The notes under the pieces are model-generated. The model was not told the DNA's origin. It worked only from the letters and a program-made list of their open reading frames with translations, and did no database searches. From NCBI RefSeq assembly GCF_012027395.1, contig NZ_SNUJ01000001.1, positions 1 through 64,000 of the forward strand: 64,000 nt of DNA, read 5' to 3'. This document shows, piece after piece, positions 1 through 54,962 of the stretch (position 1 is its first letter; every line of letters begins with the position of its first letter). Both the position numbers and the translations under genes were made by a program. This DNA is from Thermococcus sp. LS1. GTDB taxonomy: Archaea; Methanobacteriota_B; Thermococci; Thermococcales; Thermococcaceae.

Positions 1-99
1 CCCCTCTCGGAGGGCAGTACACCCGGGATCGCTGGCGGGCTTAACTTCCGGGGTCGAAACGAGACCGGGTGTAACCCCGCCGCTATGACCGCCGTACCG
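1..99 (-). rRNA. rrf: 5S ribosomal RNA, 3' part cut by window edge
   Basis: Read on the minus strand from about position 99, the sequence starts GGTACGGCGGTCATAGCGGC and continues through the conserved archaeal 5S segment with CACCCGGTCTCGTTTCGA, AAGTTAAGCCC and GGTGTACTGCC. This is the large-subunit 5S rRNA. The 3' part lies off the left edge. A TATA element at 121-128 sits about 25 nt upstream of the predicted 5' end. No 16S or 23S gene is visible in the window, so this is either an unlinked 5S copy or the start of an operon outside it; I cannot tell which. Confidence 0.92.
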
Positions 100-29138: not shown

Positions 29139-29978
29139 ATGAAGTGCCTTCTCGTGGGTCACCTTGTCATTGACATCGTGGTCAGAGGCTCGAGGTCCGA
29201 AACCCGAATCGGGGGAGGAGCCTACTACTCAGCCCTCGCACTGGCGAAGTTCTGCGACGTTGAGATTCTCACGAGTGTGGGGGAAGACTTTCCAGAGAAA
29301 TGGATCAAGGAGCTCGAAGAGAGGGGAATAAAACTCAACATCATTCCCTCAAAAACCAGCACAGCCTACGAGCTCAGATACCTGGACGGAAACACGAGAA
29401 CGCTGAGGCTTCTCGCTAGGGCCGAGCAAATAACAGAAGTCCCAGATAAGCGCTATGATATGGTGATCCTCAACCCCGTTGCCAACGAGATTCCTCCCGA
29501 AACGGTCGAAGCGTTCAAGAGGAGAACAGACTTCCTGGCGGCCGACGTCCAGGGGTTCATCCGAAAGCCCCAGCCTGGAATGGTGGAACTTATCGAGAGG
29601 GAAACCTCTTTCCTCAAGGGCGTCAAGGTGCTCCACGCTGACCTATTGGAGCTTCCGTACCTCAAGAACCTTCAGCCCGAGGACGTTGAGGTTCTCCTCG
29701 CTTCCAACGGACCGGAACCGGGAAGGGCGTATCTAAGAGGCAGGGAGTACATCTACCGGCCGGTTAGGGTTGAGGTCGAGGAATCCACCGGTGCGGGGGA
29801 CGTTTTTCTCGCCGCGTTCAGCTACTTCTACAAGAGCTGTCCGTTCATTCAGGCGCTCAAGAGGGCAAATGCATTCACTGGGCTGTTCCTAGAGAGGAGG
29901 AGCTTTGACTTCTCAATGGAAGATGTGGACGAGCTGGCGATGAGGGTGAAAGTCGAAAGGAGCGAGGACGCTTCTTAA
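29139..29978 (+). CDS. PfkB-family sugar kinase, probable myo-inositol 3-kinase
   Basis: The ribokinase/PfkB fold of 279 residues has [14 protein letters not shown] near the start and the catalytic [14 protein letters not shown] near the end. The gene follows gar1 as in T. kodakarensis, where the ortholog at this place (TK2285 as I recall) was reported to phosphorylate myo-inositol. The presence of inositol-phosphate synthase and DIPP synthase genes 7-14 kb away fits that role. Nucleoside or ribose kinase activity remains possible. GGGGTAAA precedes ATG 29139, and a TATA box lies near 29095-29103. Confidence 0.82.
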
Positions 29979-29987
29979 CATTGAAAA

Positions 29988-29996
29988 CTATAAAAG
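29988..29996 (+). promoter_or_regulatory. TATA box of the C/D sRNA and/or Nudix gene
   Basis: CTATAAAAG is centred at 29992. Initiation about 22-26 nt downstream would begin at 30014-30018, at the foot of the predicted sRNA stem. Confidence 0.55.
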
Positions 29997-30010: not shown

Positions 30011-30078
30011 ATTATCGACCGATGATGAAACGTCAGCATGCTGAAGATGATGAGAAGGGACTTCCCTGAGGTGATGAT
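30011..30078 (+). ncRNA. Box C/D guide sRNA in the leader of the Nudix gene
   Basis: All four boxes are present in order: C ATGATGA (30022-30028), D' CTGA (30041-30044), C' ATGATGA (30047-30053) and D CTGA (30066-30069). Both guide intervals are exactly 12 nt (30029-30040 and 30054-30065), the canonical archaeal length. Flanks 30011-30020 and 30070-30078 pair as a nine-pair terminal stem with one bulged G. In archaea such RNAs, with L7Ae, Nop5 and fibrillarin, direct 2'-O-methylation five bases from D or D'. Targets should lie in rRNA or tRNA complementary to AACGTCAGCATG and GAAGGGACTTCC. The 3' end touches the Nudix ATG. Confidence 0.85.
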
Positions 30079-30588
30079 ATGGACAGGTACGTTCTCCTCG
30101 TTAAAGCTCCAAAGGGAATGGATATCTCCCCCGTAAGGGAGGAGCTGAAGGAGTTCCTCAGCGAGAGGCATCCTGAACTCAAGGTCGAGCTTCACAGATG
30201 CATAGGCCTAACCGTTGATTTGGTAATTCTCTACCGCGAGGGTGTTGTGCTCATTAAGAGGAAGCATGAGCCGTTTAAGGACCACTTTGCCCTGCCTGGG
30301 GGCTTCGTCGAGTACGGAGAGACCGTTGAGGATGCTGCAGTAAGAGAAGCGAAGGAGGAAACGGGGCTCGACGTCAGACTATTGCGGCTGATTGGAGTTT
30401 ACTCAGACCCCAACAGGGACCCGAGAGGACACACGGTAACTGTGGCGTTTCTTGCTCTGGGAACCGGTGAGCTGAAGGCAGGAGACGACGCCAAGGACGT
30501 TATGGTAGTCCCGATAGATGAGATTAATGAAATTCCATTGGCGTTTGATCATGGTAAAATCTTGAGAGACGCCCTGGAACTGAGGTGA
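30079..30588 (+). CDS. Nudix hydrolase (ADP-ribose pyrophosphatase type)
   Basis: A 169-residue protein with a complete Nudix box in the segment GGFVEYGETVEDAAVREAKE followed by ETGL, which binds Mg and cleaves nucleoside diphosphates linked to another group. An N-terminal about 45-residue extension (VLLVKAPKGMDISPVREEL) precedes the fold. The HTVTVAFLALG segment after the box is common in ADP-ribose pyrophosphatases; the substrate is inferred. The ribosome binding site GGTGATGAT overlaps the end of the C/D sRNA. Confidence 0.88.
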   Translation: MDRYVLLVKAPKGMDISPVREELKEFLSERHPELKVELHRCIGLTVDLVILYREGVVLIKRKHEPFKDHFALPGGFVEYGETVEDAAVREAKEETGLDVRLLRLIGVYSDPNRDPRGHTVTVAFLALGTGELKAGDDAKDVMVVPIDEINEIPLAFDHGKILRDALELR

Positions 30589-30592
30589 AGAT

Positions 30593-30946
30593 ATGATAGA
30601 AGTTCCCGAGTTCGGTCGGATAATCGTCGATGGAAAGGAGTATGCCCACGACATCGTGATATATCCCAGTGGAAGGATAGAGACGAGAAAGAAGTGGATA
30701 AGCAAGGAGAAGCACGGGACAAGCCACAAGCTCGATCCAGAGGAGCTGAGGGAGTACCTGAGAGAGGACTTTGACGTTCTCGTTGTTGGGACCGGCCTCT
30801 GGGGCATGCTCTCCCTTCTGCCGGAGAGCAAGGAGCTGGTCAAGGACAAAGAAATCATCGAAATACCAACGCCAGAGGCGGCCGAGCTCTTCGAGAAGCT
30901 AAGAAAGGAGAAAAGAGTCCTTGGGATATTCCACGTCACCTGCTAA
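30593..30946 (+). CDS. Mth938-like (DUF498/COG1504) protein
   Basis: A 117-residue single-domain protein with the family pattern FGRIIVDGKEYAHDIVIYPSG, KKWISKEKHGTSHKL, then VLVVGTGLWGML. Distant relatives assist assembly of respiratory complex I in eukaryotes (NDUFAF3), but the archaeal function is unknown. It starts 4 bp after the Nudix gene and is probably cotranscribed. Its last 11 bases overlap the convergent ABC permease gene. Confidence 0.83.
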   Translation: MIEVPEFGRIIVDGKEYAHDIVIYPSGRIETRKKWISKEKHGTSHKLDPEELREYLREDFDVLVVGTGLWGMLSLLPESKELVKDKEIIEIPTPEAAELFEKLRKEKRVLGIFHVTC

Positions 30947-52656: not shown

Positions 52657-52734
52657 TGGTGCGGTGGCCGGGATTTGAACCCGGGTCACCGGCTTGGAAG
52701 GCCGGTGTCCTAGACCAGGCTAGACTACCACCGC
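52657..52734 (-). tRNA. tRNA-Gly (UCC)
   Basis: The minus-strand cloverleaf has acceptor GCGGTGG/CCACCGC, an anticodon loop CTTCCAA flanked by CCGGC/GCCGG (anticodon TCC), TpsiC GGTTCAAATCC, and an encoded CCA. 78 nt. It lies 12 bp after tRNA-Phe and is probably transcribed from the same promoter. Confidence 0.95.
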
Positions 52735-52746
52735 ATTGAGAGAAAG

Positions 52747-52823
52747 TGGTGGGGCGAGGGGGATTTGAACCCCCGACACCCGGATCTTCAGTCCGGCGCT
52801 CTCCCAGGCTGAGCTACCGCCCC
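52747..52823 (-). tRNA. tRNA-Phe (GAA)
   Basis: Minus-strand cloverleaf with acceptor GGGGCGG, D-arm GCTCAGCCTGGGAGAGC, anticodon loop CTGAAGA (anticodon GAA), TpsiC GGTTCAAATCC and encoded CCA. A TATA box TTTATAAAT at 52851-52860 predicts a start a few bases before it. Confidence 0.95.
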
Positions 52824-54643: not shown

Positions 54644-54962
54644 CGGCGGCGGGCGGGCCCGGGGGTGGGAACCCTCCACCGTCCGCTTCCACCGGGGCTC
54701 GCTCACCCCCGCTACCCCACGAGCGCCGAACGTCCCGCCTACCGCTGCTCCCTTCCGGGCCTGGCGGGGTTCGGCGGGTAAAGGGCGTTAGTCCGGCCCT
54801 CCAGCCGGACCCCGCCCACCGCCGGCCCCGTGGGACGAGGGATCACCGTTGTGCCCCGGCTTCCGCGGGCGGCTTTGGGAACCGCCCCCCGGGCTTCGGC
54901 CCCGGCATATCGACGGTTTCCGGTTACAGGGGACGCCGAACCCCCCGGCCTAGCCCGCCGCC
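54644..54962 (-). ncRNA. ffs: Signal recognition particle (7S) RNA
   Basis: Minus-strand GC-rich RNA. The helix 8 SRP54-binding segment reads CCAGGCCCGGAAGGGAGCAG at about 54750-54769. The ends pair as GGCGGCGGGCTAGGCC with GGGCCCGCCCGCCGCC. About 319 nt, normal for archaea. A TATA box TTTATATA at 54984-54993 is about 26 nt from the predicted 5' end. Confidence 0.95.

Follow-up and report, generated by a model that had tools for sequence, protein, structure and literature searches.

Genomic context and anatomy of the element

In the window analyzed here, a stretch of 64,000 nucleotides from Thermococcus sp. LS1, the gene for a Nudix hydrolase is directly preceded by a compact element whose features are collected in Table 1. 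The boxes that define archaeal C/D guide sRNAs (C, RUGAUGA; D', CUGA; C'; D) are all found in that order, and a guide of the usual kind, about 10-12 nt and complementary to rRNA or tRNA, adjoins both D' and D; the perfect boxes and two 12-nt guides named in the original prediction are read directly in the sequence. The TATA box is likewise present at the right distance. The upstream PfkB-family sugar kinase ORF stops 39 nt before the sRNA, the mature ends of which are transferred from the circular junction given for the Thermococcus kodakarensis orthologue sR61/Tko-sR67 in PMC9014305. On the 3' side, a DUF498 protein gene (PF04430), at 30593-30946 (+), adjoins the Nudix gene and is probably part of the same transcript. 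Other RNA loci in the window are the SRP RNA at 54647-54960 (-), two tRNAs at 52660-52823 (-), and a 5S rRNA at 1-96 (-), which is cut by the window edge and lies far from the 16S-23S operon (contig 177908-182673).

Table 1. Features of the sRNA-Nudix locus in the window, with the evidence or prediction attached to each.
Feature	Position	Strand	Remarks
Upstream PfkB-family sugar kinase ORF	29139-29978	+	Pfam PF00294, 41.6 bits
TATA box TATAAAA of sRNA-Nudix transcript	29989-29995	+	28 nt before expected sRNA 5' end
Predicted mature box C/D sRNA	30017-30077	+	about 61 nt, ends +/-5
Terminal stem, 5' strand ACC	30018-30020	+	extendable to 30011 with bulged G at 30017
C box ATGATGA	30022-30028	+	read from sequence, conserved
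D' guide AACGTCAGCATG	30029-30040	+	12 nt; predicted target 23S C862 (E. coli 743)
D' box CTGA	30041-30044	+	sequence
C' box ATGATGA	30047-30053	+	sequence, conserved
D guide GAAGGGACTTCC	30054-30065	+	12 nt; predicted target 23S G826 (E. coli G707)
D box CTGA	30066-30069	+	sequence, conserved
Shine-Dalgarno (SD) GAGGTGAT	30068-30075	+	overlaps D box GA and terminal stem 3' strand
Terminal stem, 3' strand GGT	30070-30072	+	pairs with ACC
Nudix hydrolase ORF, 169 aa	30079-30588	+	Pfam NUDIX PF00293, 93.4 bits; ATG at 30079

The short terminal stem that closes the C/D k-turn consists of three contiguous pairs (ACC/GGT) in the window. The nine-pair stem originally proposed requires a G-U pair as well as bulging of the G at 30017; only those three pairs are contiguous, and the extension is not conserved. 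All 49 of the 49 scored genomes of genus g1, to which the window genome belongs, have at least three contiguous pairs, the number in g1 relatives ranging from three to six. The ribosome binding site had been placed within the 3' strand of the stem, and the SD, all eight bases of which are complementary to the 16S 3' end AGGAGGTGATCGAG, does cover GGT.

Identity as a box C/D guide sRNA

Across the 64 kb, the strict C/D'/C'/D pattern has a single instance. No Rfam family calls the element at its gathering score. The best sub-threshold scores are 34.0 bits for sR52, 31.9 for sR20 and 30.0 for sR34, and nearly all plus-strand sub-threshold matches are to archaeal C/D families. Two specific assignments were tried and rejected: sR20 (RF01140) falls short of its 44-bit gathering cut-off and sR34 (RF01273) of its 40-bit cut-off, the true sR34 of the window genome lying elsewhere (G000:C2:75737-75791, 76 bits).

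In T. kodakarensis (G024), the Nudix ORF lies at 2069552-2070052 on the minus strand, with the sRNA immediately upstream. Table 1 of PMC9014305 lists for this sRNA, sR61 (also Tko-sR67), a circular junction of 2070055-2070116, or 62 nt; the same source gives 100,212 small-RNA reads in the wild type, 92 circular reads in the wild type and zero in an RNA-ligase knockout, and a transcription start site (TSS) at 2070114 taken from Jager 2014, and assigns an uncertainty of +/-5 nt to circular junctions. Coordinates agree between our genome copy and that paper, with 23S rRNA at 2024590-2027618 against a circular 23S at 2024584-2027631; our sR34-model match at 1226844-1226898 compares with their sR41 at 1226838-1226899. 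The expectation of a small RNA of about 60-68 nt is thereby borne out by the 62-nt RNA of the orthologue. Expression, size, start and circularity are shown by this published work for the T. kodakarensis orthologue.

Near Thermococcus start codons, TGATGA-like words and the word GAGGTGAT are generally common, which counts in favor of a chance assembly of box-like sequences inside an ordinary SD-containing leader. That reading is already refuted, and its probability is negligible: none of 100 dinucleotide shuffles contains any instance of the strict pattern, conservation is deep, and the orthologue has been detected as an RNA. We consider it very likely that the element acts as a methylation guide of the box C/D class that starts the Nudix mRNA, guides 23S C862 and G826, and is orthologous to sR61/Tko-sR67 and, by position, to Pyrococcus sR20. 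It is a fresh copy of an already documented sRNA, below the Rfam cut-off yet known; the original description of it as unannotated, in the sense of unknown, is not supported, the T. kodakarensis orthologue being published.

Conservation across the Thermococcaceae

The Nudix protein was matched in 88 of 94 Thermococcaceae genomes. Ahead of its orthologues, boxes and guides are retained in most Thermococcaceae genomes; the order of the boxes is unchanged, and the D' guide reads ACGTCAGCAYG, in most g1 genomes and in many genomes of g4 and g5. A search with the C box plus D' guide returned eight database matches, all to Thermococcus or to Thermococcaceae metagenome-assembled genomes. The covariance model R1, built from 15 element sequences, matches the window at 30014-30075 with 84.8 bits, the window sequence itself being in the model; matches above 60 bits occur in about 60 genomes, nearly all of them at the Nudix locus. 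G035, G046, several g4 genomes, g2 and g6 lack the element or have it in decayed form, and it is degenerate in G016 and G039. This conservation of boxes and guides, together with the RNA detected for the orthologue, upholds the proposal of a box C/D sRNA as the 5' leader of the Nudix gene.

The D guide core GGGACTT is common to the window, Pyrococcus sR20, g4 and g5. In genus g3, which we take to be Pyrococcus, the same place is occupied by an element that scores 55-61 bits with the Rfam sR20 model and has a different D' guide. The Pyrococcus loci (L053, L062, L079 and other g3 loci) retain the D guide and carry another D' guide, a one-guide difference between sister lineages. The converse is found in a g1 subgroup (G015, G017, G027, G032, G058, G059, G061 and G064), where the D' guide is retained and the D guide lost. 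The replacement D guides there are unrelated sequences of 9-10 nt, for which no convincing target was found in the rRNAs of the window genome.

Predicted guide targets in 23S rRNA

Under the rule that methylation falls on the base paired five nucleotides ahead of the D or D' box, the rRNA target search suggested at the outset gave one predicted site for each guide. In the rRNAs of the window genome the D' guide matches best at 23S 859-868, with ten contiguous Watson-Crick pairs, equalled by 3 of 150 shuffled guides. For the D guide the best site is 23S 823-831, with nine contiguous pairs, equalled by 14 of 150; taken on its own, this match is not beyond chance. By alignment, C862 corresponds to E. 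coli 743 and G826 to E. coli 707. The predicted sites lie 36 nt apart near helix 35; an archaeal methylation hotspot has been reported for helices 35 and 35a (PMC4644070). Candidate tRNA targets were also sought, in tRNA-bearing loci scanned with their flanks, and yielded loose matches only, none clearly within a tRNA.

Base -2 of the D' guide is T in 20 of 20 genomes whose 23S has A at the facing position, and C in 27 of 27 whose 23S has G. This concordance, 47 of 47, overstates independence, because guide changes counted on the 23S tree number at least three and only one of them sits on well-supported branches; the 23S tree was used for these counts since the deep nodes of the Nudix-gene tree are not resolved. 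A further C-to-T change in the D' target of 23S occurs in Pyrococcus and in four g4 genomes without the guide, and in none of the guide-bearing genomes. Covariation between guide and rRNA lends independent support to the predicted assignment of the D' guide to C862. Most likely, the sRNA directs two 2'-O-methylations, at C862 and G826, in one region of 23S rRNA.

Promoter and overlap with the upstream gene

The C box is preceded by TATAA in 42 of 52 g1 genomes, at a distance of 18-45 nt that is mostly 30-33 nt, and 49 of 52 have a TATA-like motif once TTTAA and TTATA are counted too. None of 21 genomes from g3, g4 and g5 has TATAA before the C box. In these three genera the upstream ORF extends into the sRNA, and guide sequence doubles as codons of that ORF. 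The TGA of the D' box serves as its stop codon in seven of nine g3, six of six g4 and five of six g5 genomes, an arrangement not present in the window.

The Nudix leader: guide function or translational control

The SD overlaps both D box and stem, and a transcript fated to become sRNA therefore loses its SD. As judged from this overlap, intact sRNA and SD-led Nudix mRNA would compete. The original prediction offered two consequences, repression of translation through the stem and L7Ae, or processing of the sRNA from the mRNA. The second is probably correct, the circular RNA of T. kodakarensis ending 2 nt before the Nudix ATG (2070052).

The first can be put more generally: the C/D fold, with L7Ae or the whole sRNP bound, would hide the SD and repress Nudix translation, and this would be the main reason that the element is conserved. 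In the window, as in L7Ae-controlled translational leaders, the SD GAGGTGAT does overlap a k-turn element. Precedents include Sulfolobus L7Ae, a repressor of its own mRNA by way of an SD-masking k-turn (PMC5539422), and 11 potential snoRNAs placed by Jager 2014 in T. kodakarensis 5' UTRs, some of which may be cis elements (PMC4247193); a 2021 review also describes a drop in reporter output with 5' overlaps (PMC7994747). Across relatives, however, conservation of an SD-masking structure is not supported. The core stem of 3-4 bp that contains the SD is conserved in g1, but pairing in the extended stem does not rise above that of swapped partners in the g1 comparison. In most g5 genomes a second, separate SD follows the sRNA ahead of the Nudix ATG. 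The sRNA has no TATA box of its own in Pyrococcus, g4 and g5, where it shares sequence with the 3' end of the upstream gene. The strongest conservation is that of the guide tracking 23S changes.

Two metagenome assemblies that agree with each other, G050 and G055, bear on the same question. Each has a second intact sRNA copy directly 3' of LSm-rpl37e genes (L235, G050:C11:7477-7539; L236, G055:C25:43645-43707), at a distance from any leader; the C box of this relocated copy, ATGAAGA, resembles that of genus g5. The Nudix-linked copy has decayed, by a deletion in G050 and by guide and box mutations in G055. In both genomes the Nudix gene is still present with an SD, which goes against a leader retained for repression. 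G060, with a similar upstream gene, has an intact leader copy alone among strong matches.

From the decay in G050 and G055, the second SD of g5 and the lack of stem conservation, we conclude that guide function is what is kept: comparison of these loci suggests that the guide, not a translation switch, is what selection maintains. Repression through L7Ae and the stem as the reason for retention is not supported, and we judge the cis-regulatory explanation improbable. Loss of the SD seems to be a side effect of tight packing that is tolerated, not the function under selection, and a passive translation cost from the leader element is possible.

A milder proposal is that one transcript has two fates, sRNP or mRNA, such that guide and Nudix output are coupled and the trimmed mRNA is near-leaderless. 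The 3' end of the T. kodakarensis sRNA, so close to the ATG that the SD is removed, is in its favor, as is the TSS located at the sRNA 5' end in PMC9014305, but coupling is absent from lineages with a separate SD or with an sRNA copy elsewhere. We regard this proposal as unlikely, though less so than conservation for repression. A regulated choice between sRNP and Nudix translation by way of the D box/stem/SD overlap, tying guide supply to Nudix output, is as improbable as the repression model. Overall, a regulatory reading of the Nudix leader is possible and weakly supported.

Proposed pathway and significance

For the favored reading, a guide sRNA that starts the Nudix mRNA, the present analysis supplies the boxes, guides, conservation, covarying D' target and promoter motif. 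Transcription from its own promoter would place the sRNA as the first 62 nt or so of the Nudix mRNA. It would then be released and trimmed, protected by L7Ae, Nop5 and fibrillarin in a presumed sRNP, and often circularized. In 23S rRNA, C862 would receive a 2'-O-methyl group through the D' guide and G826, putatively, through the D guide. Release would leave at best a near-leaderless Nudix mRNA.

For a Thermococcales sRNA that was already documented, these results supply a firm target assignment backed by guide-rRNA covariation, and they describe one locus at which one guide is kept and the second differs in Pyrococcus and relatives. The leader arrangement offers a clean test case for the effects of 5'-overlapping sRNAs on the downstream gene, because natural decoupled and relocated versions exist.

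Comparison with known systems

The k-turn in the Sulfolobus L7Ae 5' UTR (PMC5539422) resembles the window element in being placed where it could mask an SD, but it is simple and without guides, whereas both guides of the window element match rRNA. The C/D sRNA sR34 (RF01273) has a partly similar D' guide, and most g4 copies of the element exceed the sR34 cut-off; its guides are nevertheless others, and a separate true sR34 gene is found in nearly all genomes. Pyrococcus sR20 (RF01140) shares the place before the Nudix gene, the GGGACTT core, the predicted G826 target and the box layout, but differs in its D' guide, GCCTCGATTGG, with predicted target 23S U911 (E. coli 790), and in an upstream ORF that runs into the sRNA. 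T. kodakarensis sR61/Tko-sR67 matches the window in its locus before the Nudix orthologue, in its boxes and in an identical D guide. It belongs to another species, in which the 23S target base is G rather than the A of the window genome, and its D' guide is that of the window except at the very base that covaries with 23S.
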